44,339 nt of DNA, taken from Candidatus Poribacteria bacterium. Lineage in GTDB: Bacteria > Poribacteria > WGA-4E > WGA-3G. The position numbers were made by a program, and so were the translations under genes. Below are positions 2,961-36,873 of the stretch, piece by piece. Position 1 is the first letter of the stretch; each line of letters opens with the position of its first letter. The notes beneath the pieces were generated by a model. That model made no database searches. It was not told the origin of the DNA and was given only the letters and a program-made list of their open reading frames with translations. The stretch is from the NCBI GenBank assembly GCA_028821605.1, contig JAPPFM010000016.1:69785-114123 (forward strand), given 5' to 3'.

Positions 2961-5873
2961 ATGAAAAATGACGATACGCAACTCATCCAGCGCGTCCTTG
3001 ATGGCGATGATACGGCGTTCTCTGCACTCGTGAGAAAATATCAGAGATCCGTTCATGCACTGGCGTGGCGGAAGATTGGAGATTTCCATATCGCCGAGGA
3101 CATCACACAAGATACATTTCTGAAGGCGTATCAGAGACTCTCTACACTGAAGAAACCGCAGCGTTTCGCAAGTTGGCTCTATGTGATAGCAGCGAACCAT
3201 TGCAGCACATGGCTGCGTAAGAAACGTCTGTGGACACAGTCGTTAGAAGAGACAAACAGCGCGCAGTTAGAAAAAGCGACGTATTCCGGGTATGTCATTG
3301 AGGAGAACGAGCGGACAACGGCAGAAGCGCAGCGCGAAGTCGTCAAGAAGTTGCTTGCGAAGCTAAAGGAAAGCGATCGGACAGTCATCACGCTCTACTA
3401 CCTCGGGGGAATGACTTATGAAGAGATAAGCGAGTTTTTAGGAGTCTCGGTAGCTGCGATTAAGAACCGTCTCTACCGAGCACGTCGCCGCTTAAAGGAG
3501 GAGGAACCCATGATAAGAGAGGCTTTAGGCAACTTCCAAATCACACCACACCTCACTGAGAACATTATGCAAAAAATCTCCCGTCTGAAACCCGTTACCC
3601 CGTCAGGCAGTAAGCCGTTAATTCCATGGGCAATAGGTGGTTCGGTGTTAGTCGTCGCGTTTTTGATGTTAGGTGTTGGCAATCAATACTTGTCGCGTTT
3701 CCAAAAGCCATATAGTTTTAACGCGACTTCAGAAATGACAGTGGAATTGATTGAGGCACCTATTGTGCTGAACCTTGACTTCAAACCTGATGTTCGGACG
3801 CAACTTGGAAACGCCAATGCACCGAATAATAGCGATGGGTTAAATCAGCAACCCGATCCACCTACATATATGGCGAGGTTTGCTGCTGCACCGGTAGATG
3901 AAACAGAGGAAGTAACTGTTGCCGATGAAGCCGAGAGCGATATTATCTTGATTGTCAATACTACCGCGGAAGGTGGAGGGCATTTGGCAGAAGGCACTTT
4001 CAATCTTAGGAACACCGATGAGGCTTTGACATCCACAACTTATTCTACCAGTGGAGGGAGTGGTGGAGTTGATCCGTCGCCGCGGTATATGTTGTTCTCT
4101 TATGTTAACCACAAGGGGATAGAACTTTTCAGATTTCCCTTAAGTATAGGAAATACTTGGACGCAAATAGGTCGCTTAGGTCGATGGTACATAAGAGCGG
4201 AAACAAGTTTGGAAAACTATGAGCAAGTAGAAGTTTCCGCAGGGACCTTCCGTGAGTGTCTTAGGCATAAAACTATTTTCACAGATGTTGAAGCCGACTC
4301 CGAACTGGAGAGTGCCTTGGCAAATGGCACGCGCTATTTGTGGTTCGCCAAAGGCGTTGGAATCGTAAAAATGCGTTATGAGCATACCAATGGCATTGTA
4401 ACGGAAGCCGAATTGCTGGAATACAAGGTCCCAGCCAACACCACGGAGTACTTTCCTTTGCAAATTGACAACACATGGAGCTACAAATGGCAAAACAACT
4501 ATCGGGACAAAGCGGCCATTGAAACATGTTATGTTGTCAATTCAAGCGCCGTTTCAAGGCAGCAAGATACAACACCTCCAAAAGTGGAGAAGACTATTCC
4601 CAACTTATCTGAGAAAATTTCAACGGATCTGAAGGAGATTCGGATTGTCTTTGATGAAAGAATGAGAGGTATAGATGTAGCGTTTGCTGGGGTTCCGGTT
4701 GGTGATATCTGGTGGGAGGATGGCAACACAACTCTCGTTATTTCATTTAAACAACACCTCGCGTCTTCAAAAATTTATCGGCTCATATTAGGTGTTGATG
4801 GAAATATCAAAGATATAGCAGGCAATCCATTAGATGAACACACTCTTATCTTCACAACTGAAGGGTCAGAGCCGGTTACACCTACTTTTGTGAATATGAC
4901 ACCCGTCCCTGTAACAGATATTGAAGAACTTAATCTCTCAAATGAGCTGCTTTGCCGCGTCTCAACGGACCTTACAGATGGTTTTGCTTTTCCATATTAT
5001 CTGTTTATTCCGCAGGGGATAGATTCTAACAAACCGATCCATCTCCTGGTAGAGCCGTGCAATACAGGATCTGGAAACAATTTTAAAAAACTCGATAGGA
5101 AAGTGAAGGCATTCACAGAGGCATCTCATGCGACTGTGATCGCAAGAAAATTGAAAATCCCACTGCTCGTACCTGTTTTTCCTCGGCCCGGCGGGGACCA
5201 ATGGCAACTCTACACACATGCCTTGGATAGGGATACACTCCTGCTAACAGAGGGCGGACTCAGGAGGATCGACCTGCAGCTCATCAAAATGATAGATCAT
5301 GCACAGCGACTGCTAAGGCACAACAACGTGAAAATAAATAAAAAAGTTTTCATGAACGGGTTTTCGGCTTCTGGAACGTTTACGAATCGGTTCGCGATTT
5401 TGCATCCAACGGTTGTCCGCGCTGTCGCAACTGGTGGAGTCAACGGTATTCCAACCTTCCCAACGGATCGCTGGAATGAGGTCACGATTCGTTACCCAAT
5501 TGGAATTGCTGATGTGAAAGAAATTGCTGGTATTGAATTTGATGAAGCGGCATATAAGAAGGTTTCCCAGTACATTTATATGGGTGCCTTGGATGACAAT
5601 GACACCATTCCATATCGAGATGCCTTTGATGAAGTAGATGCCGAGTTAGTCAAAAGCCTCATTGGGGCTGAAATGATGCCAGATCGATGGGAGGTCAGTC
5701 AATCAATATATAAGGCACTTGAGATTCCTGCGCAGTTCGTTACCTATGAAAATACTGGGCATCAAATCAAGAGTGAGATGATTGATGATATTGTCGCTTT
5801 TTTCAAGGCGAATTCTGGCGACGAAATTGTTAAGATTGTTTCTTATCAATATCCGTCCTCGTCTGGAGAGTGA
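2961..5873 (+). CDS. ECF sigma factor-TM-Ig-like-alpha/beta hydrolase-like fusion
   Basis: 970 residues. Sigma region 2 spans about residues 12-90 (AEDITQDTFLKAYQ), region 4 about 128-180 (MTYEEISEFLGVS), and a transmembrane segment 221-240. After residue ~283 the protein no longer resembles its four paralogues. Residues ~300-560 hold two FPL-x-x-(G/D)-NTW type units (FPLSIGNTW, FPLQIDNTW). Residues ~565-680 form an Ig-like (Big_5 type) domain starting DTTPPKVEKTIP. Residues ~690-955 resemble an alpha/beta hydrolase: a nucleophile-elbow-like GFSASG (800-805), an acidic GALDDND near 878, and a candidate catalytic His in NTGHQ (934). The fifth elbow position is Ser rather than Gly, so activity is uncertain. 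ATG chosen for AGAGGTG five bases upstream. The downstream LamG gene starts 2 nt after the stop. Confidence 0.85.
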   Translation: MKNDDTQLIQRVLDGDDTAFSALVRKYQRSVHALAWRKIGDFHIAEDITQDTFLKAYQRLSTLKKPQRFASWLYVIAANHCSTWLRKKRLWTQSLEETNSAQLEKATYSGYVIEENERTTAEAQREVVKKLLAKLKESDRTVITLYYLGGMTYEEISEFLGVSVAAIKNRLYRARRRLKEEEPMIREALGNFQITPHLTENIMQKISRLKPVTPSGSKPLIPWAIGGSVLVVAFLMLGVGNQYLSRFQKPYSFNATSEMTVELIEAPIVLNLDFKPDVRTQLGNANAPNNSDGLNQQPDPPTYMARFAAAPVDETEEVTVADEAESDIILIVNTTAEGGGHLAEGTFNLRNTDEALTSTTYSTSGGSGGVDPSPRYMLFSYVNHKGIELFRFPLSIGNTWTQIGRLGRWYIRAETSLENYEQVEVSAGTFRECLRHKTIFTDVEADSELESALANGTRYLWFAKGVGIVKMRYEHTNGIVTEAELLEYKVPANTTEYFPLQIDNTWSYKWQNNYRDKAAIETCYVVNSSAVSRQQDTTPPKVEKTIPNLSEKISTDLKEIRIVFDERMRGIDVAFAGVPVGDIWWEDGNTTLVISFKQHLASSKIYRLILGVDGNIKDIAGNPLDEHTLIFTTEGSEPVTPTFVNMTPVPVTDIEELNLSNELLCRVSTDLTDGFAFPYYLFIPQGIDSNKPIHLLVEPCNTGSGNNFKKLDRKVKAFTEASHATVIARKLKIPLLVPVFPRPGGDQWQLYTHALDRDTLLLTEGGLRRIDLQLIKMIDHAQRLLRHNNVKINKKVFMNGFSASGTFTNRFAILHPTVVRAVATGGVNGIPTFPTDRWNEVTIRYPIGIADVKEIAGIEFDEAAYKKVSQYIYMGALDDNDTIPYRDAFDEVDAELVKSLIGAEMMPDRWEVSQSIYKALEIPAQFVTYENTGHQIKSEMIDDIVAFFKANSGDEIVKIVSYQYPSSSGE

Positions 5874-7252: not shown

Positions 7253-10174
7253 ATGAAAAATGACGATACTCAGCTCATCCAACGTGTCCTTGAAGGCGAT
7301 GATACCGCGTTCTCTGCGCTTGTAAGAAAATATCAGAGATCCGTTCACGCGTTGGCGTGGCGAAAGGTCGGAGATTTCCATATCGCCGAGGACATCACAC
7401 AGGATGCGTTCCTAAAAGCGTATCAGAGACTCTCTACGCTGAAGGAACCGCAGTCTTTTGCGAGTTGGCTCTATGTTATAACTGCCAATCAGTGTAAGGC
7501 ATGGCTCCGGAAAAAGCGGACGTGGATACAGTCGTTGGAAGACACAAGCACCGCGCAGGTGGAAAAGGCGACCTACTCTGGACATATCATTGAGGAGAAC
7601 GAGCGGATGATAGAGGAAACACAACGCGAACTCGTCAAGAAACTACTGGCAAAATTACAAGAGAGTGACAGGACAGTCATCACGCTCTACTACCTCGGAG
7701 GAATGACGTACGAGGAGATTAGCAATTTTTTAGGGGTATCGGTAGGTGCAGTTAAGAGTCGACTCCACCGGGCAAGGCAGCGCTTAAAGAAGGAGGAGCC
7801 AATGATACGGGAGGCTTTAGGCAACTTCCAAATTACACCGAATCTGACAGAAAATATCATGCAAGAAATCTCGCGTCTGAAACCTATTACTCCGTCAGGG
7901 AGTAAACCGTTTGTGCCATGGGCAATCGGCATCTCCACGTTAGTCGTTGTGCTTTTAATGTTGGGTGTCGGGACGCAATATTTAGCGAGTTTCCAAAAAC
8001 CCTACAGTTTCGATGCGACTTCGGAGATGACAGTTGAACTCATCGAAGCACCCATCGTGCTAAACCTTGAATCCAAACCTGATGTTCGGACACAGCTCGG
8101 GAATGTCAATACGCCAAGCAAGGGCAATGCCTCTCATCGACAGCCTCATGAGGTTTCAGCGTCGGTTGCAGAGGCAGAACCAGAGGAAACAGATACAGAC
8201 TATTCACAATCGGAACTGCCTAAAGCGGCGAAAGCGCGTTTCGGTAAGGGCGGCATTAATGCAATGCAGTTTTCGCCGGACGGGACGCAACTCGCTGTCG
8301 GAACGGATATCGGTGTGTGGCTGTACGATATGGAAACCGGTGAAGAGAAGTTTCTCTTTCGGGGGATGTGCCAATCCCTTGCATTTTCGCCGGATGGCCG
8401 CTTTTTGGCGAATGGCGGCGGCAAGTTTCTCGGACAGCAACTCCAGTTGTGGGAGATAGCCGCGGAGCGTCCGGTACCCCTCATTGGTGGACCTTTTGTC
8501 GGATCGGCATTGCAGTTTTCTAAAGATAGCAAAACACTTGTTAGTGTAAGTAACTGGGGCGACACAATTGGTTGGTTAGATGTTGAGACTGGACAGGGAT
8601 ATGTGAAGAAGATCGAAGTACGATCTGGTTTGGGAAGACCTTATCCTAAGGTCTTCGCGCTCACAGAGAATAAAATTGCGATTGGATGGAGTGATGGGAA
8701 AATACAGGTGTGGGACCCAAAAACGGGTAAAAAGTTATCGACGCTCGACGAAAATGCGGGGTCAGCGAATATGTGGGAGGGTCTCTTAGCATTGGCGTTT
8801 TCACCCGATGGTACCCGACTCACCAGTGCAAGCAAGGATGGTACAATCCGATTGTGGTATAGCAGCAATGACGAATGGATGACCCTTCAAAAACATACCG
8901 GTTATGGGATGGCAACGTGGACAAATGTGTTAGCGTTTTCACCGAATGGCAAAATGCTCGCAAGTGGGGGGACCGATAAAACAGTGCAGTTGTGGGATAC
9001 GACCACGGGTGAGCCACTCACGACACTCACTGGGCATATCAACGGTATGACTGCGTTAGCGTTTTCCAATGATGGCACCACGCTTGCAAGTGCCAGTGCC
9101 GACGGCACCATCCGGTTCTGGAATACAGAAACTGGTGCGCCGCTACCATCCCATATCACAGGACATACGGCATCGGTAAGAGCAGCGACTTTCCTTCAAG
9201 AGAGTTCCACGCTTGTCAGTGTCGCCTTTAATGGTGAAATTGCATTTTGGAATCTGGAAACACCACAAAAGCCCACTGTTCATACGGCAGGCAATCAAGA
9301 TTGGTTAGCAACTTTAGCATTTTCGCCGGATGGAACGAAACTCGCCAGTGTTCGTGCCTTCGGTAACGTAATCTTCAAGCCAGGTTTCAACGACGTGCTT
9401 TGGAGCGCAGGTTCTTCGATTCGTTTGACAGATGTCAGCACGGGGATCGAATTGGCGACCCTTACAGATATTAAAGCCCCCTCACGTTTGACTTTTTCGC
9501 CTGATGGGAAAACAGTAGCCTTCGATTCTGAAGCTAAAAAAATTCATTTGTGGCATACAGAAACCGGTGATGAATTGAATATCCCTCTCGTTGATAGGGA
9601 AGCCGATCTTCCCGATATGCCATGCGTTACCGCTTTGGCGTTTTCACCCGATGGCACGACACTTGCCAGTGGGACCAATCAAGGCAGCATCCAGACGTGG
9701 AATGTTGCAACCGGTAAAGCATTAGCTGTCTTTGCGAAACCGACAGACCAAGGGAACCTTGAGTATAATTTAGAGCGTATTTTAACACTGTGTTTTTCAT
9801 CAGATGGCACCTTGCTTGCTGCCGGTTCATACAAACTGATCCGTATATGGGAAGTGACTACGGGTAATATACTTCTATCAGTCAACCCTGATGCGCATAA
9901 GCGAGATAGTCCATGGACGTACAACATCTATCCTGAATCGTTGGTATTTTCACCAGATGGTGCAATTCTTGTGAGCGGACTTGTCGGCGGAGCAATCCAA
10001 TTATGGGAAGTTACCACAGGAAACAAGATCGCTGCGCTTGATGGGCATACACAAAGGGTAGAGACCTTAGCATTTTCATTTGATGGTAAAGTGCTTGTCA
10101 GTACAGGGACAGATGGCACGATTCTCTTATGGGATTGGAATGAAGTCCTCACGGGTTCATCCGAAAGCGAATAA
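7253..10174 (+). CDS. ECF sigma factor-TM-14-repeat WD40 fusion
   Basis: 973 residues. Sigma region 2 (~12-90) and region 4 (~128-180; YEEISNFLGVSVGAVKSRL) are followed by the conserved linker and a transmembrane segment (PWAIGISTLVVVLLMLGVG, ~222-240). From residue ~330 I count about 14 WD40-type units of the form LAFSPDGxxLASG...IxLWDxxTG, enough for two seven-bladed propellers. Its closest relative is the gene at 17084. The ABC permease gene begins 2 nt after its stop codon, so they are probably cotranscribed. Start: ATG with AGAGGTG five bases upstream. Orientation is predicted as sigma inside, propeller outside. WD40 propellers are normally scaffolds or ligand-binding domains; the ligand is unknown. 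Confidence 0.88.
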   Translation: MKNDDTQLIQRVLEGDDTAFSALVRKYQRSVHALAWRKVGDFHIAEDITQDAFLKAYQRLSTLKEPQSFASWLYVITANQCKAWLRKKRTWIQSLEDTSTAQVEKATYSGHIIEENERMIEETQRELVKKLLAKLQESDRTVITLYYLGGMTYEEISNFLGVSVGAVKSRLHRARQRLKKEEPMIREALGNFQITPNLTENIMQEISRLKPITPSGSKPFVPWAIGISTLVVVLLMLGVGTQYLASFQKPYSFDATSEMTVELIEAPIVLNLESKPDVRTQLGNVNTPSKGNASHRQPHEVSASVAEAEPEETDTDYSQSELPKAAKARFGKGGINAMQFSPDGTQLAVGTDIGVWLYDMETGEEKFLFRGMCQSLAFSPDGRFLANGGGKFLGQQLQLWEIAAERPVPLIGGPFVGSALQFSKDSKTLVSVSNWGDTIGWLDVETGQGYVKKIEVRSGLGRPYPKVFALTENKIAIGWSDGKIQVWDPKTGKKLSTLDENAGSANMWEGLLALAFSPDGTRLTSASKDGTIRLWYSSNDEWMTLQKHTGYGMATWTNVLAFSPNGKMLASGGTDKTVQLWDTTTGEPLTTLTGHINGMTALAFSNDGTTLASASADGTIRFWNTETGAPLPSHITGHTASVRAATFLQESSTLVSVAFNGEIAFWNLETPQKPTVHTAGNQDWLATLAFSPDGTKLASVRAFGNVIFKPGFNDVLWSAGSSIRLTDVSTGIELATLTDIKAPSRLTFSPDGKTVAFDSEAKKIHLWHTETGDELNIPLVDREADLPDMPCVTALAFSPDGTTLASGTNQGSIQTWNVATGKALAVFAKPTDQGNLEYNLERILTLCFSSDGTLLAAGSYKLIRIWEVTTGNILLSVNPDAHKRDSPWTYNIYPESLVFSPDGAILVSGLVGGAIQLWEVTTGNKIAALDGHTQRVETLAFSFDGKVLVSTGTDGTILLWDWNEVLTGSSESE

Positions 10175-13650: not shown

Positions 13651-16623
13651 ATGAAAAACAACGATGCTCAACTCATCCAACGCGTCCTTGAAGGCGACGA
13701 TACTGCGTTCTCCGCACTCGTGAGAAAATATCAGAGATCCGTTCATGCGCTTGCGTGGCGTAAGATTGGCGATTTCCATATCGCAGAAGACATCACACAG
13801 GATACATTCCTGCAAGCATACCAGAGATTATCGACGCTGAAGGAACCGCAGCGTTTTGCGAGTTGGCTCTATGTGATAGCGGCAAACTACTGCAAGATGT
13901 GGCTGCGTAAGAAACGTTTATCAACGCAGCCGTTGGAAGAGACAAGCAGCGCACAGTTAGAAAAAGCGACGTATTCTGGATATGTTATTGCGGAAAACGA
14001 GCAGACAACAGCCGAAACGCAGCGCGAAGTCGTCAAGAAGCTGCTTGCAAAACTTCAGGAGAGTGAGCGGACAGTCATCACCCTCTACTACCTCGGAGAA
14101 ATGACGTACGAAGAGATAAGCGAGTTCTTAGGGGTCTCGGTAGCTGCGATTAAGAACCGGCTCTATCGAGCACGTCGCCGCTTAAAGGAGGAGGAACCCA
14201 TGATAAGAGAGGCTTTAGGCAACTTCCAAATCACACCGAATCTCACAGAAAATATTATGCGAGAAATCTCGCGTCTGAAACCCGTTACCCCGTCAGGCAG
14301 TAAGCCGTTAGTTCCATGGGCAATAGGTATTTCGGCGTTAGTCGTCGCGTTTTTGATGTTAGGTGTTGGCAATCAATACTTGTCGCGATTCCAAAAGCCG
14401 TATAGTTTCGATGCTGCATCAGAGATGAAGGTTGAACTCATTGAGGCACCCGTTGTGCTGAATCTTGAATCCGAACCTGGTGTTCGGACGCAGCTCGGAA
14501 GTTCTAAAGTGCCAGGTAGAGACATTACCTCCAACCAGCAGCCTGATGACTCTCCAGTATGGTTGGCGGCTGCACAAGGGGATAAGGCAGAGGTCCCTGT
14601 CTCAAAACAACAGTGGGTACAGGCAAGCGAACCCGGAGGCATGGTTGTAATGGCTTTAGCTGCTATACCTGAAGGGAATCTCTACACTATTGATGGTTGG
14701 GGGGATGTCTACAAATTATCAAATGATAAAATGGGATGGCAACGCATCTTCAACATTGGCTCGCTGAATACCCCTTGGGGAGGCAACCCACCTATTGCGA
14801 AGTGGAACAATACACTTTATCTTCTACCGTCTAACGAACTTTTTGCTTCAACGGATGATGGTAAGACATGGAATTTACGCTACTCTTGGCACGAAGGATA
14901 TAGATATCCAGTCGAATTGGTGCCGACAGAGCAAGCGTTTTATCTTGCCTTTGATAATGGTATTTTCCGTTCTGAGGATACCGGTAAGACATGGCAGGCG
15001 ATGGACGAAGGGTTGACAGGAAGAATTGAATCCTTAGTCAAGATCCAAAACACACTGTTTGCTGGAACAAGAACCGGACTATACCGCTTAAACGCTGATA
15101 GTTGGCAACGCTTACAGCTTCCGGTGTCTGAAGCCGAAACTATTCAATCGGTAACGGCAACTCAAGATAAGCTCTATGTTGCGGCACAGTTAGACTGGAG
15201 AAAACTTAGCAGAGGTGATAGACAGCAAATATCCGAGGGACAGAGGCGATCCTGGTGGATGTTCCGTTCAACTGACAAGGGACATTCGTGGACAGATATA
15301 ACCCCCACAAATGCTTGGCCTCTCCTTGGGTATCCACCCCATATCAGACTTGTCGCTATAGAAAAAACACTCTTAGTGATAGGTATGAATGATGGTGTAG
15401 TGGTTCGCTCAATTGATGGTGGGAACATATGGGCATACGAGGAAGTTACCGGTATTTCTCCCACAAATTTCAGTGTAACCGAGACTGTCGCATTGAACGA
15501 AAACACCTTTTATGCAAAAGGAAACCAGGGTATTTTTCGCTCTACCGATGGTGGTGTATCGTGGCATCGGTTTAACAGGAAGATGAGGAGTCGGGTGGAT
15601 AACCTAATCATATTTAGTGGAGTTAATAAAGGACAGCATACAGTTTCGACTCTTTGCGCAAGGGTTGATGGAGAGTTAGTTAAAACCACCAATAAAGGTA
15701 GGTCATGGAAAACCGTTCAGGTGGAAATACCAGTGAAAGCACCTTATAGAGAAGACCCACCACATATTGACAAAATAGTAGCCGCTGATGGCATGCTTTA
15801 TGCAAAGGGTAGAGTTCCTTTTGAAGAAGTACGCCTATATCGCGTCTCTGCAGATAGCAATACGCTAATACCGATTCAAGGAGTACCGGTCTTTTACCCG
15901 CTGGCGTTAATGAATGAGGCGTTCATTTTTGAGCAGTTACAAGATAACGTTTCTGGTGCAGCCCAGTTTTTCAAGCAGTTGGCAGAACCGGATCCCCAGT
16001 GGTCGGATGAACTTGTTCGAGGCGGTTTGCGTGGTGCGTTTGCCGTCAGCGGCAACACGTTCTATATGGAATACAATTATAAACTCTTCCGATGGAAGCC
16101 GGGTGAAGCGGCGTGGTTTGATACCGGTGTTGAAGAAATTGCTGAATTCTCTAAAGAAACAATAAAGCAAGGATTCAAACTTGCTGCTTCGGGAAACACT
16201 GTCTATGTCGGAAAACGGGATGGACACCTTGTCGTTTCGTTTGATGAGGGTAATAATTGGATTGATCTCACTCCGATCTTGCCGTTTTCTGTTAAAGTTT
16301 TCAAAGAGATAGTGTTTGCGGGTTCCACAGTATATGTGGCAACAGACGCAGGTGTTACTGCGTCAAGTAATGGAAAAAACTGGCGCGCTATCACTGACGC
16401 AGCGGGAACGCCTCTCGTTATGGAACGGTTGACTATTGATGACACAAATGTTTATGGTATTTCCAAGACGGGTGTTCATCGGTTGAAGAGTAATGCTGGC
16501 GTATGGAAACAGATTGCGCCGGAGATACCTGACAGCGTGACTTCTCTGGCTGTTGATGGTGATGTGCTATACATCGGCACACAAAGTAAGGGTATGCTTC
16601 ATTGCACCCTTGACAAAGAGTAA
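13651..16623 (+). CDS. ECF sigma factor-TM-Asp-box (BNR) propeller fusion
   Basis: 990 residues and the complete relative of the truncated gene at the left edge. Sigma region 2 (AEDITQDTFLQAYQ), region 4 (YEEISEFLGVSVAAIKNRL), linker, transmembrane segment (PWAIGISALVVAFLMLGVG, ~222-240), then an Asp-box propeller. Examples are STDDGKTW, SEDTGKTW, STDKGHSW, SIDGGNIW, STDGGVSW, TTNKGRSW and SFDEGNNW. These repeats are typical of sortilin/YCF48/sialidase-like propellers but the enzymatic residues of sialidases are not apparent. The ATG is preceded by AGAGGTG. It stands alone between its own promoter and the leader of the next sigma gene. Confidence 0.87.
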   Translation: MKNNDAQLIQRVLEGDDTAFSALVRKYQRSVHALAWRKIGDFHIAEDITQDTFLQAYQRLSTLKEPQRFASWLYVIAANYCKMWLRKKRLSTQPLEETSSAQLEKATYSGYVIAENEQTTAETQREVVKKLLAKLQESERTVITLYYLGEMTYEEISEFLGVSVAAIKNRLYRARRRLKEEEPMIREALGNFQITPNLTENIMREISRLKPVTPSGSKPLVPWAIGISALVVAFLMLGVGNQYLSRFQKPYSFDAASEMKVELIEAPVVLNLESEPGVRTQLGSSKVPGRDITSNQQPDDSPVWLAAAQGDKAEVPVSKQQWVQASEPGGMVVMALAAIPEGNLYTIDGWGDVYKLSNDKMGWQRIFNIGSLNTPWGGNPPIAKWNNTLYLLPSNELFASTDDGKTWNLRYSWHEGYRYPVELVPTEQAFYLAFDNGIFRSEDTGKTWQAMDEGLTGRIESLVKIQNTLFAGTRTGLYRLNADSWQRLQLPVSEAETIQSVTATQDKLYVAAQLDWRKLSRGDRQQISEGQRRSWWMFRSTDKGHSWTDITPTNAWPLLGYPPHIRLVAIEKTLLVIGMNDGVVVRSIDGGNIWAYEEVTGISPTNFSVTETVALNENTFYAKGNQGIFRSTDGGVSWHRFNRKMRSRVDNLIIFSGVNKGQHTVSTLCARVDGELVKTTNKGRSWKTVQVEIPVKAPYREDPPHIDKIVAADGMLYAKGRVPFEEVRLYRVSADSNTLIPIQGVPVFYPLALMNEAFIFEQLQDNVSGAAQFFKQLAEPDPQWSDELVRGGLRGAFAVSGNTFYMEYNYKLFRWKPGEAAWFDTGVEEIAEFSKETIKQGFKLAASGNTVYVGKRDGHLVVSFDEGNNWIDLTPILPFSVKVFKEIVFAGSTVYVATDAGVTASSNGKNWRAITDAAGTPLVMERLTIDDTNVYGISKTGVHRLKSNAGVWKQIAPEIPDSVTSLAVDGDVLYIGTQSKGMLHCTLDKE

Positions 16624-22330: not shown

Positions 22331-25300
22331 TTAGAGCTCTGCACTGACTGTCATTTCTAAACGGTGTTCAGGTTTCCGCTGTTTTGTGGAGAGCAAGCGG
22401 TAATTGAGCCGAAACAGGAGATCGGTGAATTTTCGTAATCTGTAATCTGCTGTCGTACGGACTTCGTGGCTGATACCTTCATAGAAGGTGTATTGCGCAA
22501 ACGGGATACCACCACGGCTCTCGCCATAGCCGAGTTTGTAGTTGACATCAACACGTCCCTTGCCGATAAGACTATAGGTGATACGGTTTTCAAACGAGAA
22601 AGTACGCGTTCTCGCTTCAGGTTCCTCGTCGAGCTGCTCCTCATCGATGGTGCGTTTATATCCGCCAGTCCCACTCCATCTTATTGAATTGCTCAATTCA
22701 TACCGGAGGCTCAATTCAGTCGTCTGCTCAAATTGGCGTAAGTCTGAGATGGGCATTGACGGCAATTCTGACACGTTCTCCATAGATTCAGTTTCCCCCG
22801 CGAGTTCTTCAAATTGGAATTGACTATATTTCTCGGTTTCTCGGCGTTGTTCCCAGTTCGCACCGACAGATAAGCGTTGCGTTGGGTTCACGGAGAAACC
22901 AACATCCCACGTGTTGTGCAGTCTGTGGCGTTCTTGGTTGTTAATTCGTCGGTTGAGGGTCTCACCCGCTCGAAGGTTGATCTCGAAATTGAACGCCGGT
23001 GAGGGCGAAAATTCGAGCCGATGGTGCTGATTCAACCGCCCGAAAAGCGTTTCTGAGCCTTGTAGACTTTGGAGCAGATAGAGAGACACCGCATCCTCTA
23101 CTTCCTGTTCTTCGGTCAGCCACAACCGCGTTTGACCCCTGAGAGCCTTCAGAAACCACTCTACGCGAGATGGTCGTGGGCTTCGTTGGCTGGGGGTGGA
23201 AGATTGGAAGCCTGGAAGGGTAGAGCCACCATTCTTCCCTCCTTCCAGCCTTCCATTTTGAGAATGCACACTACCGATTGCCGAGTGGTTTCCGGTGTGT
23301 GATGGGGTTGGACGTAAACTATCACGCCTCATCATCAGATCCCGTTGCTGCTGTTGTCTTGCTCGGTCGCGTCGTGCGAAAAACTGACGCGGTTGAAAAC
23401 GCATTCGGAATTCTGCATCCACCGCTGTTGTCGGTTTATCCCCCACATTTTGATAGATTTTGATGTAGGTGCCTTCTTCGGGATCCTCTACATAGTGCAG
23501 GTCGTCCAATTTTACGTAATATCCTTCACCGGGTTGGAGCAGCACACCAGTGTGTGGATGGATGTCGGTGTAGACTTCGCGGCGTTGGCTTGTCAGTTTT
23601 TTGTCTAATTCATAGCTGATTTCGATATCAATTGCTCGGCTGAGTGGTGTGAGTTGGAGATTGACATCCGCGAGTTGGGTCGTCGTATTCGCACCGAGAT
23701 CGGTGTGCGCCTTCAACATCCGGCGTGCAAGGTTTGCAGTCAGATTCACTCCCCCGCCGAGCAAGGATTCTTGTTGCGATAAGACACCGATTTTCCATGT
23801 CCGTGCGGTCGTACTCCGCTGCCAATCCGATAAGCCGATAGGCGCGTCATCCACGGTGAGTAACGGTTCTTTCGCGAAAGCCTCCTCAAGTTCATAACTG
23901 GTGTTGAGAGATGCCCACTTGAACTCAGCAAGGTCAATGCGTCCGCTTGCCCGGTTCCGCTTTCGGTTGAGTGTGGCGTTACGCGCCTCGTTCGATTCCA
24001 CTCGCCCCAATGTTCCTAAGATTCTGAACGGACCGAGAGGGTACGACAGATTGCCTTCCTGTCGTGACTTCTGTAGGGACTGTGCCCTTGTTGAATCTGC
24101 ACCTTCCGTCCGGGAATTACTCCGGTAGTCGTCCCAGCGGAGATTCGGTAACTTCTTCAGTAACTCTGTTCCTGCAGATGTGCGCTGTTCCGATGCGACG
24201 GTATTCGTCTCTTGACTGTCTCTGCGTGTGTTTGCCCGAACACCGGTGAGGGGTGCGATTCCACCGCCTGAACGCCGGTTGAAGTTGACACCCCAGTTGA
24301 AATTGTTGCGGATGGTTGCGTTTGCAACAGGGAAAGGTACTGTCTCGTCTGTGGGTTCTGTCACCTCCTGAACGGTCTTTTCACGTTCCGGTTCTCTTTC
24401 TTCACTCCTACCGACACCAGCGTCAACCTCCAGCCAATCTATCGGAATCATCTGGATGTCAAAGTTCAGTGTTCTCTCGTCTTGAGGTGTTCGCGAAGGA
24501 CCTTCGAGATTGAGCAGAAATGCGTCATCGAAACCCTCTTTGGCGTATTGTGTTTCGTAACGGGAACGGGTGCGGTTGCTGCTTGAGGCACCGACAGGCA
24601 CGAAGCCAGCATCCATTGACCGTATATCGAGATTTGTGTGTAGGAGGGGTTTGTAACCCCGATTCCCTTTATCCGACCCTATTGGGAATTCCCAATCGGC
24701 ATAACCGCTCAGTTTCCATGCCCGACTCACCTCTTTCCGATCGACAGTAGAGTAGGTGTTTTTATCAAGATTACTGTAAGCGAGTTCGCCTTGGATCCAC
24801 GCTTGCTCGGTAACGTTCAGACGACTTTCCAATCCCCATACAGTATGTTTCTGTGGTGCTATGAGGAGGGATCCCTCTCCCTCTAAATCAAGGATATTTT
24901 GGCGAAGTGCTTCCAACTCCTCATCGTTAAAATCGATTAAAGCCTGTTCTGGTTGATTTAGATCTGCTTCAACAGCATAGGATGCCCCGAAGGTTAAACG
25001 TTCACCGGGCAGTGTGAACACGCTGCTAAGTCCGTAAAGATTCTGTTGATACGCACGCTCTTCGGGGATGTATTCAAAATCGATCCGAATTACGTCGTTG
25101 CTTGTTATCAGATGTTTGCTGTTAAACTCGACAATCGGGTCCCCGTATTCACGGATGATGTAATCGTTGTTTTCGCCGCGCCGCATCCTCTCGCCGTTCA
25201 GCCAGACGATTTCACTCCCTGCTTTCACGATGACGTATTGCCCATCGACGGTGAGTCGATATTCACTCCGTCCTTCCTCACCCTGAAGGACTAAACTTGT

Positions 25301-26005
25301 GGATTGCCCCTTCGGAATGGCACTTGGAATGAGGTGAAAGTCTACCGACTTAAAATCGCCTTCAACCTGCACACCTTCTAAGGCGCGTGGAAAAAAGATG
25401 AACTCCGATGGACCGAGAGATCCTTCAAAGTCGCCTAAGGTGCCCGTCATGTTGGGATGTGTGATACGAATCAGTTTCTGATCGATGTCTTGGATATTTT
25501 CGGTTGTTCCTTCGGGTTGGATCGGCAAATCTTGGTCGGAGAGAAGTGCAAGAACACTGATATTTTCAGAGACTTTACCCTCTACGTTGACGCGGAGTTC
25601 CTGGTTTTGCGTCACACCGCGGTTACTGCCGACTGAGATACCAAACGTTTGGCTTCCAGACACTTCTAATTGGCTGTCGGTTGCCGGAAGCCGTCGGTTG
25701 TCAGCAAGAACATCTGTTTGCTGTGGAGAACCGTCGGTTGTCAACTGACTGCTATCTTGTTGACTACCGCCTGCTGTCCCGTAGAGATCGCGTTTATAAA
25801 CCTGTTTGATTGCGAAGGGCAGTGTTCGGTAAGTTATCTCTAATCTGTAGGGACGATCTGTGGACGGTTCAGTCGCAGAATGATGCTCTTCTAAAGTGAT
25901 TTTTCCCAAATAGAAATCAATCTGGTAATCGACACCCCGCACGAGCATTTTTCCACCGGCTTCCGTTATCCGTTCACTGTTTGGAAGAATCGGTGGATAC
26001 TTCAC
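22331..26005 (-). CDS. large predicted outer-membrane beta-barrel protein
   Basis: 1224 residues from the first canonical start, GTG 26005. The N-terminal half has paired-strand modules (EFTVKYPPILPNSE; GSQTFGISVGSNRG; RVNVEGKVSENISVLALLSD; MTGTLGDFEGSLG). The C-terminal two thirds is an amphipathic beta pattern rich in alternating aromatic/charged residues, as in large outer-membrane barrels. It also has a Gln/Arg-rich linker (ARRDRARQQQQRD). I cannot assign a named family. The frame is open upstream to 26332 and encodes a convincing signal peptide (WLLIALFLLAFCLCIPPSLG, about 26179-26120) with no ATG, GTG or TTG before it. The true start is therefore upstream of 26005, non-canonical, or lost. 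It lies downstream of the NHL lipoprotein gene, probably in one operon. Confidence 0.7.
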   Translation of the reverse strand: MKYPPILPNSERITEAGGKMLVRGVDYQIDFYLGKITLEEHHSATEPSTDRPYRLEITYRTLPFAIKQVYKRDLYGTAGGSQQDSSQLTTDGSPQQTDVLADNRRLPATDSQLEVSGSQTFGISVGSNRGVTQNQELRVNVEGKVSENISVLALLSDQDLPIQPEGTTENIQDIDQKLIRITHPNMTGTLGDFEGSLGPSEFIFFPRALEGVQVEGDFKSVDFHLIPSAIPKGQSTSLVLQGEEGRSEYRLTVDGQYVIVKAGSEIVWLNGERMRRGENNDYIIREYGDPIVEFNSKHLITSNDVIRIDFEYIPEERAYQQNLYGLSSVFTLPGERLTFGASYAVEADLNQPEQALIDFNDEELEALRQNILDLEGEGSLLIAPQKHTVWGLESRLNVTEQAWIQGELAYSNLDKNTYSTVDRKEVSRAWKLSGYADWEFPIGSDKGNRGYKPLLHTNLDIRSMDAGFVPVGASSSNRTRSRYETQYAKEGFDDAFLLNLEGPSRTPQDERTLNFDIQMIPIDWLEVDAGVGRSEEREPEREKTVQEVTEPTDETVPFPVANATIRNNFNWGVNFNRRSGGGIAPLTGVRANTRRDSQETNTVASEQRTSAGTELLKKLPNLRWDDYRSNSRTEGADSTRAQSLQKSRQEGNLSYPLGPFRILGTLGRVESNEARNATLNRKRNRASGRIDLAEFKWASLNTSYELEEAFAKEPLLTVDDAPIGLSDWQRSTTARTWKIGVLSQQESLLGGGVNLTANLARRMLKAHTDLGANTTTQLADVNLQLTPLSRAIDIEISYELDKKLTSQRREVYTDIHPHTGVLLQPGEGYYVKLDDLHYVEDPEEGTYIKIYQNVGDKPTTAVDAEFRMRFQPRQFFARRDRARQQQQRDLMMRRDSLRPTPSHTGNHSAIGSVHSQNGRLEGGKNGGSTLPGFQSSTPSQRSPRPSRVEWFLKALRGQTRLWLTEEQEVEDAVSLYLLQSLQGSETLFGRLNQHHRLEFSPSPAFNFEINLRAGETLNRRINNQERHRLHNTWDVGFSVNPTQRLSVGANWEQRRETEKYSQFQFEELAGETESMENVSELPSMPISDLRQFEQTTELSLRYELSNSIRWSGTGGYKRTIDEEQLDEEPEARTRTFSFENRITYSLIGKGRVDVNYKLGYGESRGGIPFAQYTFYEGISHEVRTTADYRLRKFTDLLFRLNYRLLSTKQRKPEHRLEMTVSAEL

Positions 26006-31282: not shown

Positions 31283-31648
31283 TTAAGTCCTTACAATTCC
31301 GGCTATCGCTTCCGCTTCCGTATCATAACAGTCAAAAATGGTCATTAGTTTTGCCATGACAATGAGACTTCTCACGTTGCCACCAAGATTCAAGAGTACG
31401 ACGTTCCCACCATCCCGTCGGATGGTGGTGTACGAAGCGACAAGCGCCCCTAAACCGGAACTGTCCATCATCTGGACCCGTTCCATGTTTAGAATCAAAT
31501 TGAGTTTCCCCCCTTGTTCCGCTTCGCTATCTGTGGCTTGAATTTGCTGATCAATAATGGTTTTGAGAGCTAAGGCATCTGCCCCAATAATTCTTCCCTC
31601 AATATCTAAAATTGTAATACTGCCTTTGTGTCGAAGGTTGACTTGCAT
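31283..31648 (-). CDS. STAS-domain anti-sigma factor antagonist
   Basis: 121 residues, a single STAS domain of the SpoIIAA/RsbV type. The phosphorylation motif MMDSSGLGALVASY places the regulatory Ser at 63 or 64. In this family the unphosphorylated form binds the RsbW-like kinase and frees its target. ATG with AAGGAA upstream. It lies between the RsbW-like gene and the AccD-like gene; a second STAS protein is at 36535. Confidence 0.92.
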   Translation of the reverse strand: MQVNLRHKGSITILDIEGRIIGADALALKTIIDQQIQATDSEAEQGGKLNLILNMERVQMMDSSGLGALVASYTTIRRDGGNVVLLNLGGNVRSLIVMAKLMTIFDCYDTEAEAIAGIVRT

Positions 31649-31932: not shown

Positions 31933-32637
31933 CTACGGTTCTGCAGGGTTCTTATATTTAACCATTTTGATGATGGTCCCGTTGGCCTCGTAAGTTACAG
32001 AGTCCATATAGGCTTCTATCAAAAATAATCCTCTACCACTGCTTTTGAGCAAGTTTTCTGGATCAAGTGGGTCGGCTACCTCTTTACGTGTGAACCCTGT
32101 ACCTTCGTCTTTAATGGCAATTGCGAGTTTATCCTCAGCAAGCGTCAACTCAATGGTTGCCTTTTTGTTTGGGTCCTCTTTATTGCCGTGCTTGATCGCA
32201 TTTGTACCCGCTTCAATAACAGCAAGGTTAATCTGTTCTTGCATATCCTCGGTAAAATCAGTCTCTTTCAAAATCTCGCTGACGACAACGTCAAGTAGGT
32301 AAACATGTTGCATTGAACTTGGGAGAGAAAGCGTAATCACCTGTTCAGTTTCAGCCTCTTTGGGTATAAATCCCTCACCTTCGTCCTCGGTGACAATGGT
32401 TAGTTTATCCTCAGCAAAAATCAATTGAAAAACTGTTTTTTTGCCTGGCTCCTCTTCGTTGCCGTGCTTAGTCGCGTTTGTACCCGCTTCAATGACAGCA
32501 AGGTTCATCTGCTCTTGTGTGTCCTCGGTAAAATTGGTCTCCTTCAAAATCTCCGCGACGATAACCTTGAGCAGATCCTCATGTTGCATTGAACTTGGGA
32601 GAGAAAGTGTAATCACCTGTTCAGTTCTCTCACCCAC
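31933..32637 (-). CDS. RsbW-like anti-sigma kinase with tandemly duplicated HATPase domain
   Basis: 234 residues from GTG 32637, chosen because AAGGAG lies eight bases upstream; the frame opens further to a TTG at 32676. The protein is an internal duplication with a 92-residue period. The first unit starts at residue ~6 (EQVITLSLPSSMQH), has the N box (AVIEAGTNATKHGN) and the G1 box (DEGEGF), then stops. The second starts at ~98 with the same segments (AVIEAGTNAIKHGN, DEGTGF) and adds the missing G2 part SSGRGLFLI. In the family this GHKL ATPase phosphorylates STAS partners and sequesters a sigma factor or other target. A single complete ATP site is expected, in the second unit. Confidence 0.88.
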   Translation of the reverse strand: MGERTEQVITLSLPSSMQHEDLLKVIVAEILKETNFTEDTQEQMNLAVIEAGTNATKHGNEEEPGKKTVFQLIFAEDKLTIVTEDEGEGFIPKEAETEQVITLSLPSSMQHVYLLDVVVSEILKETDFTEDMQEQINLAVIEAGTNAIKHGNKEDPNKKATIELTLAEDKLAIAIKDEGTGFTRKEVADPLDPENLLKSSGRGLFLIEAYMDSVTYEANGTIIKMVKYKNPAEP

Positions 32638-32807
32638 GTTTGAAGCTCCTTCTCTGCACACTTGGATATTTTCCAAGGGCAGTTACAAAGTGGAATTTGG
32701 AAATGATCCCACCTTTTATTATTTTTTGCCAAGTTTTGACATTGTTAAGATTCATTATGCCAAAAATACGTTGTATGGGCAATGCCAAACTGCATGCCCT
32801 TTCTGAT

Positions 32808-34052
32808 TTAAGGGTCTCGCTTGATAATGATTAATGCTCTGTCGTCGTAAGGTGTTGTGCTTCCACTAAAGACTGCTAAATCGTCAACAATCGCTTCGCA
32901 TAACACTGATGCTGGCAATGCGGCGTTTTTGGAAAGACAAGCGGCGAGCCTGTCTCCACCGTAAAACATATCCATCAGTATTGCATCTTCGGGCGCGTCA
33001 TCTTGTGCTGAATTTGTAGACGCTCTCTGATTTTCACCGGAAACTGTGCTGTTTCTGGCAGCTGTTTCAGTGATACCGTCCGTATAAAAAAGGAGTGTAT
33101 CACCAGGAGATAGCGAACAGGTCTCGCTTGCAAATGTTGCTTCTTCAAACGCACCTATTAACATGCCTCCTATTTTTAGAGTTGCCATCTCTTGCGTATT
33201 CTTCCGATGGAATGGATAGCAGTGTCCTCCATTTGAATATGTAAAAGTTGATGTCGTTGTGTCCAGTATACCGTAAATCATTGTTGCAAACAGATCTGCC
33301 TCGGTGTCCCGTACCACTAAGTCATTAATTCTTTTGAGGATCGATGCGGGGGTCTCTTCCTCATGACAGAGTAAACGGAGTGCTGTCCGAATCATCACCA
33401 TTAACAGTGCTGCCGGGATGCCGTTACCCTTTACATCACCGAGAACGATCCCGATCTGTGTTTCGCTTAACGGAATGAAATCGTAGAAGTCGCCGGAAAC
33501 AGACGTTGAACTTTGAAGTAGAGTTGCGATGTCGAATCCTTTGAGGGTTGGTGCCTGTTCCGGTAATAATTTTTTTTGAATGGCAGCGGCGGCTTGAAGG
33601 TGCCCCGCGAGTCGTTGTACCCCTTCTTCACTGAACCCGTCCCCCATTGCATGCATTAACGGGTTGATGTATTTAATGGGTCGAGTTCTACCCAAAACTG
33701 CTTCGACCCGCGCGGTCACCTCGCGGAGATCGAAAGGCTTCGTGATATAATCGTCTGCACCGGTATCCAAACCGCGGACTTTATCCTCTGTCTGTCCACG
33801 TGCGGTGAGTAAAATAACTGGGACGTTTTTTGTATGTTCTATGTCCTTAAGTTCCTCAATGACTTGAAGACCATCCTTATGTGGCATCATTACATCAAGA
33901 AGGATAAGATCCGGCGGATCCATACATGCGCTTTGTACTGCACTCTCACCATCATTTGCAGTCCGTACGTTGTAGCCCTCCGGTTCCAGATTCATCTTTA
34001 GCAATTCAAGAATATCCAGATCGTCATCAACAACCAAAATTGTTTCAGCCAT
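32808..34052 (-). CDS. response regulator with SpoIIE/RsbU-type PP2C phosphatase domain
   Basis: 414 residues from ATG 34052, which is preceded by AGAGG and overlaps the stop codon of the histidine kinase gene by 8 nt (translational coupling). A receiver domain covers ~1-120: acidic pocket VVDDD (7-11), phospho-acceptor Asp53 (DLILLDVMMP), Lys106 (ITKPFD). A linker (~125-190) leads to a PP2C-like domain with SGDFYDF, LGDVKGNGIPAALL, FYTDGITE and a final DDRALIIIK. Such proteins dephosphorylate STAS antagonists when their receiver is phosphorylated. Partners are probably the STAS proteins at 31283 and 36535. Confidence 0.93.
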   Translation of the reverse strand: MAETILVVDDDLDILELLKMNLEPEGYNVRTANDGESAVQSACMDPPDLILLDVMMPHKDGLQVIEELKDIEHTKNVPVILLTARGQTEDKVRGLDTGADDYITKPFDLREVTARVEAVLGRTRPIKYINPLMHAMGDGFSEEGVQRLAGHLQAAAAIQKKLLPEQAPTLKGFDIATLLQSSTSVSGDFYDFIPLSETQIGIVLGDVKGNGIPAALLMVMIRTALRLLCHEEETPASILKRINDLVVRDTEADLFATMIYGILDTTTSTFTYSNGGHCYPFHRKNTQEMATLKIGGMLIGAFEEATFASETCSLSPGDTLLFYTDGITETAARNSTVSGENQRASTNSAQDDAPEDAILMDMFYGGDRLAACLSKNAALPASVLCEAIVDDLAVFSGSTTPYDDRALIIIKRDP

Positions 34053-36432
34053 TTTTCCTCTTTTCCAACGGGATGAAAAATTGGAAGTTGGACCCCAGTC
34101 CATTATCGCCAACATCCACCCATAAGTGTCCACCGTGTGCTTCAACGATTCCGGCGGCAATTGAGAGTCCTAAACCAGTGCCCCCGTGTGGTTGCCGAGT
34201 CTGAACGCTTCCAAGTTGTCGGAATTTGTCAAAAACCTTTTCCCTCTCTTCGGTTGGGATTCCCGGTCCTGTGTCAACGACTTCAACGTGAACCCCCTCG
34301 GTTGCACTCCCGTTCTGCAGAGATTTTGATATTCGGACCGTCACCTTTCCATTGTTTGGTGTAAATTTGATGGCATTTCCAATGAGGTTAACAAGAATTT
34401 GCCCGATCCGATCTCCATCCCCAATCATCGACGGTAGATGAGATTGCGCCTCCAAGAGTAGGGAGATGGCTTTCTCGTCCGCCTGTGGACGGAGCTCTTC
34501 GATTCTCCGTTCGGCTATCCAGTCTATTTTTACTTGCTCCTGCTTCATCTCAATGCGTCCCGCTTCAATTCGGGAGACATCAAGCAGGTCGTTAATAAGG
34601 GCAGCGAGTCGTTTCGATTGACGATGCGCGCGACTCAGGCTCTCGTGCTGTTTCTGATTAATTTTGCCGGTTTTTCCATCAAGTATTAACGAGATGAATC
34701 CAATGATAGATGTCAGCGGCGTTCGCAATTCATGCGACACAAGAGAAACAAACTCCGACTTCATTTGTTCTATTTCGTGTTCATTTGTGATATCATCGAA
34801 GACATAAACAGTACCGGCGACATTATTGTGCTCATCCGAAAAATGACTTGATATAATGCGAAGAACTCGGGAGCTATCACCGTTTGATTGATTCCCGTTG
34901 ACGTTCACCTCAGCAATCATCGTTTGATGTTGTGACACCTCACGTTGAGAGGAAGACAAAATTTTCGTATCAACCGTTCTTGTCTCTGTTTTTGTGCCCT
35001 CGACACCTTCTGATGTTTTCCTCCAGCTGATTGTCCCGATCCCTGTGTCAATAGCGATAAAGTTTTCGTAATCAGCAGTATTTCCTAAATTCAGAAGGCG
35101 TTCAGCTACAGGGTTGACATACAGGACTCGTCCAATAGGTTCAACAACAATCAGACCTTCACCGAGATTGTCCACGATAGCCGTAAGTTTTCTTTCCTCC
35201 TGTGTGAGTTGATCGACAGCGGTTTTCAGGTTTCGACGCATCTCATTGAATTCTTCAGCGAGGACACCGACTTCGTCATCGCTGTCAACGGTAATTTCAC
35301 TGTCGAATTTACCTTCCCCAACGCTACGTGCTGCTTGTGCAACTTTCAGTATCGGTGTCGCTATCCGCTGTGCCGCCCACCACGCAATTAGTATAACGAT
35401 ACAACTTGACGCAATGGTAACATAAAAAATATATCTGTTTAATTCAACAACACCAGCGTAAGCGGAGGAAATGGGACGCGAAGTAAAGACGATCCAGTTA
35501 CTAAAGTTCTGTTGAACCTTCCAAGGTTCCATATTTGAGCGTTGCGTCCGAGCCCAGCCGTAAATGCGGGGTTCAGCGAATGCATCGGTCTCACCTTCCG
35601 GTTCGTAACCATAATACTTCCCATCACCCCCTCTTTTCCCTTCAATAATTGCTTCCTCTGCAGCGTTGCTCATCTCTATATAACTATCTACTTGATACCC
35701 ACTTTGAGGTGAGGCGGCAACAATCTTACCAGATTCATTCGTTAAAATCGCGTATGTTTCTGCCAATTCTGGTCGTGATTCAACTAAACTGGTGAGTTCA
35801 GGTAGAAATAGAAACGTTCTCAGCACTCCCACCGTCCTATTTTTTTTTTCATCAACAATTGGCAGCGCAATTGGAAGAAGATGCACACCTCGCGTTTTAT
35901 CATAGATGACATCTTCCACAAATAGATAACCTATACCATTGTTATAGGCTCTTTGCCACCATTGCCTGTCCTGCACTTGGTGAGGGAGCATTTTTCTTGT
36001 ATCGTAATCCAGTTGTTTATTTGAGCGAAGGACATACCCGGAGGCATTCGTAATGGTTACTTCAGTTTTATAGCCTGCATAAGTCTCAAGTAAGCGGATA
36101 CTATCTTCCAGTCGTGACCATACACTGAAAAATACGCTCTCGTTGTCATTAGCAGTATTTGAATAGACAACTGCTGCTTGAATATTTGGAAGTTCTGCCT
36201 GTATCTTTGTAATTTTTTCCGAGATAGCGTTGTCCGCGCGCGCGAGTTTCTCTTGTGCAAGAAGAACGAGGTTCTCGCCAACAGTCTCTTTTAAGGCATT
36301 TTCACCGAGAAACTTGATAGTTAATGAAACAACGAACAATGGCATCAACGCGACTAACAGAAACAGAACTACCTGTTGACCGCGTAAACCTACCTTAAAC
36401 CGAGAGAGCTTCGTACGATTTTTATCTTTCAT
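34045..36432 (-). CDS. membrane histidine kinase, Cache-HAMP-PAS-HisKA-HATPase
   Basis: 795 residues from ATG 36432 (a GTG three codons upstream is also possible). Membrane span ~20-42 (VVLFLLVALMPLFVVSL), a ~290-residue extracytoplasmic Cache-type sensor (WWQRAYNNGIGYLFVEDVIY), then a second span (IFYVTIASSCIVILIAWWA). Next come HAMP (ATPILKVAQAARSVGEGKFD), PAS (IVDNLGEGLIVVEPIGRVLY), HisKA with SHELRTPLT (His ~567), and HATPase with NLIGNAIKFTP, DTGPGIP and GTGLGLSIA. Cache domains bind small metabolites outside the cell. Its natural target is the receiver-phosphatase encoded by the overlapping next gene. A 12-bp hairpin lies in its leader. Confidence 0.93.
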   Translation of the reverse strand: MKDKNRTKLSRFKVGLRGQQVVLFLLVALMPLFVVSLTIKFLGENALKETVGENLVLLAQEKLARADNAISEKITKIQAELPNIQAAVVYSNTANDNESVFFSVWSRLEDSIRLLETYAGYKTEVTITNASGYVLRSNKQLDYDTRKMLPHQVQDRQWWQRAYNNGIGYLFVEDVIYDKTRGVHLLPIALPIVDEKKNRTVGVLRTFLFLPELTSLVESRPELAETYAILTNESGKIVAASPQSGYQVDSYIEMSNAAEEAIIEGKRGGDGKYYGYEPEGETDAFAEPRIYGWARTQRSNMEPWKVQQNFSNWIVFTSRPISSAYAGVVELNRYIFYVTIASSCIVILIAWWAAQRIATPILKVAQAARSVGEGKFDSEITVDSDDEVGVLAEEFNEMRRNLKTAVDQLTQEERKLTAIVDNLGEGLIVVEPIGRVLYVNPVAERLLNLGNTADYENFIAIDTGIGTISWRKTSEGVEGTKTETRTVDTKILSSSQREVSQHQTMIAEVNVNGNQSNGDSSRVLRIISSHFSDEHNNVAGTVYVFDDITNEHEIEQMKSEFVSLVSHELRTPLTSIIGFISLILDGKTGKINQKQHESLSRAHRQSKRLAALINDLLDVSRIEAGRIEMKQEQVKIDWIAERRIEELRPQADEKAISLLLEAQSHLPSMIGDGDRIGQILVNLIGNAIKFTPNNGKVTVRISKSLQNGSATEGVHVEVVDTGPGIPTEEREKVFDKFRQLGSVQTRQPHGGTGLGLSIAAGIVEAHGGHLWVDVGDNGLGSNFQFFIPLEKRKNG

Positions 36433-36442
36433 GTTTGCCACG

Positions 36443-36534: not shown

Positions 36535-36873
36535 CTATGTGAAAGCGGCGCACGCCCCTTCCTCCGTATCATAAATCTCGATGACGGTGTTGAGCTGCGT
36601 TACCTCCAAAACTTCCCTGACGGCTTTCTGTGGGTTGAGTAGAACTAACTTTCCACCTGATTGCTGACAGGACTTCAAAGTGACCACGATTGCCCCTAAC
36701 GCGCTGCTATCGATTAACGGAACCTTCATTAGATCAACCACTAACTTGGCACGTCCAGTTTGAAGTTGCTCGTTCATTTCTTTGCGAAATGTGTCTGCCG
36801 CATTTCCAAGAATCTTCCCTTCTACGTGAAGAATGGAAATATTTTGTTCCCCAATCGTTGTCTCGAAATTCAT
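36535..36873 (-). CDS. STAS-domain anti-sigma factor antagonist
   Basis: 112 residues. A single STAS domain with PLIDSSALGAIV (Asp55, Ser56/Ser57) as the phosphorylation site. ATG with AAGGAAAA upstream. It precedes the histidine kinase by 102 nt and is the first gene of the partner-switching set, following ~160 nt of AT-rich DNA that may hold its promoter. It differs clearly from the STAS protein at 31283, so the set has two antagonists. Confidence 0.92.
   Translation of the reverse strand: MNFETTIGEQNISILHVEGKILGNAADTFRKEMNEQLQTGRAKLVVDLMKVPLIDSSALGAIVVTLKSCQQSGGKLVLLNPQKAVREVLEVTQLNTVIEIYDTEEGACAAFT

Follow-up and report, generated by a model that had tools for sequence, protein, structure and literature searches.

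The RsbW-like gene of a Candidatus Poribacteria bacterium contains an internal tandem duplication that is old, arose once and is fixed in one clade of sponge-associated bacteria. The two units have since decayed asymmetrically: unit 1 lost residues of the enzyme that unit 2 kept. The synonymous sites of unit 1, and not those of unit 2, are frozen. We lean, by a little, towards the reading that one duplication split a stretch with two roles, leaving an RNA element with the front copy and the enzyme with the back copy. The window analysed was a stretch of 44,339 nucleotides, and all positions are given in its numbering.

The gene (31933..32637, minus strand) encodes 234 amino acids from a GTG start at 32637. 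This start is backed by a shared N-terminal sequence, VGER/VGEK..., and by a Shine–Dalgarno-like AAGGAG (32646..32651, minus strand), which lies at the same distance and is invariant in 46 aligned first copies. There is no conserved coding sequence upstream, and an alternative TTG start at 32676 was rejected on these grounds. Unit 1 (32347..32622, minus strand) is an N-terminal half domain of 92 codons that stops after G1, without the lid and without the G2 box. Unit 2 (31936..32346, minus strand) is a complete HATPase_c_2 domain with N, G1 and G2 boxes, the first 276 nt of which (32071–32346) form the repeated part. The direct repeat has a period of exactly 276 bp, with 272-nt copies at 32079 and 32355 (79%), which bears out the description in the earlier note of an RsbW-like kinase with an exact tandem duplication of this length. 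On recomputation, unit 1 and the repeated part of unit 2 proved identical at 212/276 nt (76.8%) and 64/92 residues. The 19-mer TTGAACTTGGGAGAGAAAG, which falls within a stretch conserved family-wide at the nucleotide level, starts at 32313 and 32589; the spacing previously quoted for it was right, and the starts (32314 and 32590) were one base off. HATPase_c_2 was matched by Pfam in two stretches of the protein, and GRGLF occurs in it once only, in unit 2. An internal restart at unit 2 was also considered and rejected, the candidate GTG of the window's species being GTT in most species.

The genus was sampled with 38 genomes, that of the window included, of which 36 have the gene and two have no orthologue. 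A two-unit gene was found in 28 of the 36, complete in 24 and truncated by contig ends or Ns in four (G005, G006, G011 and G013), whose copies are consistent with two units. Single-unit relatives, the existence of which the earlier note had raised, are present as well: the remaining eight genomes of the genus have one unit, as does every orthologue found outside it, in all other genera of the family and elsewhere in the phylum. The recurrence of the same complete two-unit ORF in 24 species places the repeat beyond chance. An assembly error, the worry voiced when the repeat was first noticed, is ruled out by these 24 complete copies in different species, single-contig chromosomes included; two-unit genes lie on the single-contig assemblies G035 and G036 and the 3-contig assembly G034, and single-unit genes likewise on the single-contig assemblies G033 and G037. 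Contigs of G005, G006, G009, G011, G013 and G022 end in or beside the gene or have Ns there; such breaks are expected of assemblers at a tandem repeat, yet two of those genomes are single-unit.

In a tree of seven neighbouring genes the two-unit species group in a single clade, whose sister group comprises the eight single-unit species, and one state change suffices for the distribution. In the unit tree, calculated from protein and from DNA, all copies of unit 1 and all copies of unit 2 form two sister clades nested in the genus. Taken together, the two trees thus point to a single duplication at the root of the two-unit clade, and no later loss was detected. On the unit tree, recent duplication and continuing gene conversion were both rejected as the principal process; local gene conversion in G015 is possible. 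A literature search returned no report of this duplication or of the RNA element.

As judged from its sequence, unit 2 is an intact RsbW-like enzyme and a predicted serine kinase, with complete N, G1 and G2 boxes, the catalytic Glu and the Mg-binding Asn. The match to PF13581 (133 bits against a cut-off of 27.4) assigns the HATPase_c_2 fold, and in Foldseek unit 2 matches SpoIIAB and RsbW with TM-scores by target length of about 0.8–0.92; the equivalog cut-offs for RsbW and SpoIIAB were missed (NF003144, 127.5 of 145; TIGR01924, 119.5 of 155; TIGR01925, 95.9 of 135). Unit 1 was correctly described in the earlier note as incomplete for an ATP site: the lid and the G2 box are absent and G1 is mostly lost, with both G1 glycines present in 3/24 species, compared with 24/24 for unit 2. 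The catalytic Glu (24/24) and the Mg-binding Asn (23/24) are kept in unit 1. The partner-contact site holds Asp in every unit 2 (24/24) and in the single-unit genes, and in 1/24 copies of unit 1, the other 23 having Lys, Arg, Thr, Asn or Glu, mostly Lys or Arg. SpoIIAB Arg20 and RsbW Arg23, which align with this site, contact the partner (PMC10345196; PMC7340262). A charge swap between the Asp of the RsbW-like protein and an Arg or Lys of the STAS protein was considered and dropped, as genus g4 has Asn there.

The gene belongs to a strand-uniform cluster of histidine kinase (HK), response regulator (RR)–PP2C, RsbW-like kinase and STAS genes that is kept across the family. The order common in the genus is MnmG-RsmG-STAS_A-HK-RR/PP2C-RsbW-STAS_B-Zn ribbon-GalK-ROK. 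In the window, on the minus strand, STAS_B (31283..31648) is an antagonist-like partner with a DSSG phospho-serine motif; the RR–SpoIIE/PP2C phosphatase (32808..34052) starts at MAETILVV and overlaps the end of the gene for a dCache/HAMP HK (34045..36441; dCache under the Pfam cut-off); and STAS_A lies at 36535..36873. The equivalent of Ser56 is present in STAS_B in 52/52 cases and is predicted to be phosphorylatable. The RsbW-like protein would act as the kinase, or anti-regulator, of a partner switch in which the HK signals to the RR–PP2C phosphatase, which in turn acts on phosphorylated STAS, itself in exchange with the kinase. The cluster contains no recognisable sigma factor gene. Genome-wide, only three sigma70 proteins with region 3 were found, in open frames of 441–547 codons; no match scored above the SigBFG cut-off, and no dedicated target sigma was identified. 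The name 'anti-sigma factor' is therefore not established; better supported is the prediction that the protein acts on STAS proteins in the manner of an RsbW kinase.

The earlier note had also put forward a decoy, or second docking surface, for two STAS proteins, and the locus does hold two STAS genes. Both, however, also occur in genera g2 and g3 and in those single-unit sister genomes whose contigs extend far enough. In genus g4 STAS_A was not found beside the locus (e.g. L050–L065) and STAS_B is retained. The number of STAS genes thus does not track the duplication and, with the partner-contact Asp replaced in nearly all copies of unit 1, a decoy role is very improbable.

Other genes were also noted. 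A second, single-unit partner-switching set at L067:4046–7112 (G000 contig C53) comprises a HATPase_c_2 protein 34% identical to unit 2, an adjoining STAS-like ORF and a GAF-SpoIIE phosphatase. The SigBFG model has 68 matches genome-wide, many in frames of ~1000 codons. On the plus strand of the window, frames of ~970–990 amino acids at 2961–5873 and 13651–16623 combine an N-terminal ECF-like sigma (regions 2 and 4) with Ig-like/BNR domains, and the ORFs at 7253 and 17084 have similar sigma-like matches fused to WD40 propellers. An ORF of 1224 amino acids at 22331–26005 (minus strand) has no Pfam match.

Selection on the two units was compared by segment. Between species, dN/dS for units 1 and 2, respectively, was 0.16 and 0.135 in the β1–α1 segment, 0.54 and 0.075 in the N-box segment, and 0.29 and 0.097 in the β2–β3 segment. 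The low dN of unit 1 near β1 is confounded with the nucleotide constraint described below and so cannot prove a protein role; likewise, the enzyme is encoded downstream of unit 1, so that an open frame in unit 1 is by itself no proof of function. The β2–β3 segment is free of nucleotide constraint, and its value in unit 1 is therefore a clean sign that this unit still folds. AlphaFold models were made of the window protein and of the protein of one species with a strongly decayed unit 1. Their whole-chain pTM values were 0.73 and 0.78; unit 2 was confident, and unit 1 was predicted as β-α-α-β-β (β1-α1-α2-β2-β3) with pLDDT of about 50–86, lowest at α2.

Both the selection on β2–β3 and the predicted fold are consistent with an intramolecular pseudo-dimer, possible as the earlier note proposed, in which unit 1 would offer its β1/α1 surface to unit 2 and the kinase would be asymmetric, with one active site per chain. 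The RsbW dimer interface consists of β1 plus α1 (PMC7340262), and unit 1 retains both. A half GHKL domain without β4–β5 would nevertheless be an odd dimer partner, and such an arrangement leaves unexplained both the synonymous freezing of unit 1 and a covariation that is absent from unit 2; as the account of the duplication we consider it unlikely. Similar doubt attaches to a constructive neutral ratchet, in which unit 1 would confer no benefit and would persist, decaying slowly in frame, because it cannot be removed: the start and the 5′ sequences belong to it, and the enzyme would not survive a frameshift there. The relaxed dN/dS of unit 1 in the N-box and β2–β3 segments, the downstream position of unit 2, by which an intact frame is expected anyway, and the 0 losses in 28 genomes all agree with such a ratchet. 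Recombination between the repeats would restore a single unit, but no reversal is seen on the tree, and the β2–β3 value is well under neutral.

The frozen synonymous sites of unit 1 lie in two islands on the minus strand. Island 1 is CTTTCTCTCCCAAGYTCAATG (32587..32607; codons 5–8 and 10) and island 2 covers the N-box codons 36–48 (32476..32514). Third-position changes counted by parsimony in island 1 were 0 for unit 1 versus 17 for unit 2 (p = 1.6e-5), and in island 2 (codons 36, 37, 40, 41 and 43–48) 2 versus 37 (p = 7e-9); these p-values are normalised by the rate outside the islands and are optimistic, the islands having been picked after inspection of the data. Between the islands, codons 14–35 had 77 changes in unit 1 and 78 in unit 2. 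This normal rate, and the position of island 2 at codons 36–48, led us to reject a codon ramp at the gene start. In three genera the single-unit genes show freezing at the codons that are frozen in unit 1. The constraint is thus older than the duplication; the 5′ copy has retained it and the 3′ copy has not. In neighbouring genes 15-codon windows are rarely as low, the exceptions being the overlapping HK/PP2C frame and one HK window; the RR–PP2C gene is low in synonymous divergence at its annotated start because it overlaps the HK reading frame there. In the HK window, at about codons 335–350 of that gene (34045–36441), synonymous divergence is 0.10, compared with a median of 0.43.

Sequence freezing by itself cannot tell DNA from RNA, and the frozen nucleotides could in principle be a DNA-level site or part of an overlapping gene. 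An overlapping or antisense gene was rejected, as none of the other reading frames stays open across unit 1 in every species. Against a DNA site, the motif takes in the start-codon region and the invariant Shine–Dalgarno sequence, and one candidate hairpin (H5, below) covaries in two separate data sets; we regard a DNA-level or overlapping-gene origin as improbable. The 21-mer of island 1 has no other copy with ≤3 mismatches in the 6-Mb genome, and a trans copy of the motif was thereby rejected.

An RNA structure that overlaps the 5′ coding region is supported. RNAalifold z-scores, calculated against column-shuffled alignments that do not preserve codon or dinucleotide content, were −3.4 for unit 1, −5.2 for the single-unit genes, −4.4 for the family and −0.5 for unit 2; genus g4 alone gave −1.0, and nine other stretches of the operon, used as controls, gave +0.7 to −2.2. 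Covariance models from Rfam 15 produced chance-level matches only, all under their gathering scores. The start-codon hairpin H1 (32592..32640, minus strand; arms 32626–32640 and 32592–32606) pairs bases around the GUG start with island 1, GUGGG-Y-GAGA with UCUC-U-CCCA, and is kept across the family: 91% of cells are paired over 45 distinct rows, with three pairs invariant. H1 was recovered by RNAalifold from the unit 1 copies as well as from the single-unit genes, and pairing probabilities also back it. Its substitutions are one-sided only, with no compensatory double change.

Compensatory changes were found for H5, a candidate coding-region hairpin at codons 19–33 (32520..32563, minus strand; arms 32547–32563 and 32520–32536). 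Comparison of these changes with shuffles gave 0/100 for unit 1, 1/100 for the single-unit genes, 91/100 for unit 2 and 48/100 for genus g4. In a scan of 21,390 stems H5 alone reached its joint level of pairing and covariation in unit 1, and did so again in the single-unit genes; by covariation in unit 2 it ranked 9617th. In the species of the window, and in its subclade, H5 has mismatches at several positions, and a difference between two subclades accounts for some of its signal. Two further candidates on the minus strand have no covariation. H4 (32459..32501), over the N box, comes from the consensus fold of the single-unit genes and competes with H2, a pairing of 32587–32599 with 32483–32494 (CCC/UCAAUG with CAUUGA/GGG), which, CCC:GGG excepted, is almost as well preserved in unit 2 as in unit 1.

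In the explanation that we favour, the stretch would have had two jobs before the duplication: it would have encoded the first two thirds of the ATPase domain and carried an RNA element from the start codon, with GUG inside a hairpin, to about codon 56. The first 92 codons were then duplicated in tandem, once, in an ancestor that gave rise to one clade within the genus. Unit 1 would have retained, along with the RNA element, a folded half domain that includes the β1/α1 dimer elements, and it lost ATP-site and partner-contact residues; unit 2 kept the enzyme and lost the nucleotide constraint. Most probably the RNA element would dampen or control translation of the kinase: in a partner switch, the ratio of kinase to STAS proteins and target would be important. 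Unit 1 may also act as a partial dimerisation module. More tentatively, and at somewhat less than an even chance, the intragenic duplication may have resolved a conflict between two overlapping functions by subfunctionalisation of RNA against protein within one reading frame, with a cis-acting RNA element and a pseudo-enzyme half domain in the front copy and the enzyme in the back copy.

Unit 2 provides a built-in control for unit 1, from the same genomes, on the same tree and with nearly the same protein segment, and exposes the nucleotide constraint of the 5′ copy as ordinary genes rarely permit. The gene is thus a natural experiment on the separation of overlapping RNA and protein constraints. 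Its product is, moreover, an RsbW-like kinase with natural asymmetry, from a phylum in which the circuits for stress and signalling are largely uncharacterised.

The kinase is of a known kind and its duplication is new as a variant; the division between RNA constraint and enzyme is the more interesting feature. Unit 2 aligns end to end with B. subtilis RsbW and with SpoIIAB, keeping the catalytic Glu, Mg-binding Asn, G1 and G2, and as in those systems the gene is encoded with STAS and PP2C proteins. The differences are the extra N-terminal half domain, the Asp in place of the partner-contact Arg and the lack of a cognate sigma gene in the locus. RR-SpoIIE/STAS/HATPase_c_2 modules outside the Firmicutes similarly bring together an HK, an RR–PP2C, an RsbW-like kinase and STAS proteins, whereas the two-unit kinase is found here, in one clade only. 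In B. subtilis sigG, a GUG start, a hairpin at the ribosome-binding site and structure in the 5′ coding sequence lower translation (PMC5942855). The present gene shares with sigG the GUG start, the translation-start hairpin, the structured 5′ coding sequence and a place in sigma regulation, but the pairing predicted here is in a gene for an anti-sigma-like kinase, inside the coding sequence and immediately ahead of it. As in subfunctionalisation after gene duplication, two copies would have lost ancestral roles in a complementary manner; here, however, both copies belong in frame to a single protein, and the roles shared out between them would be those of RNA and enzyme.
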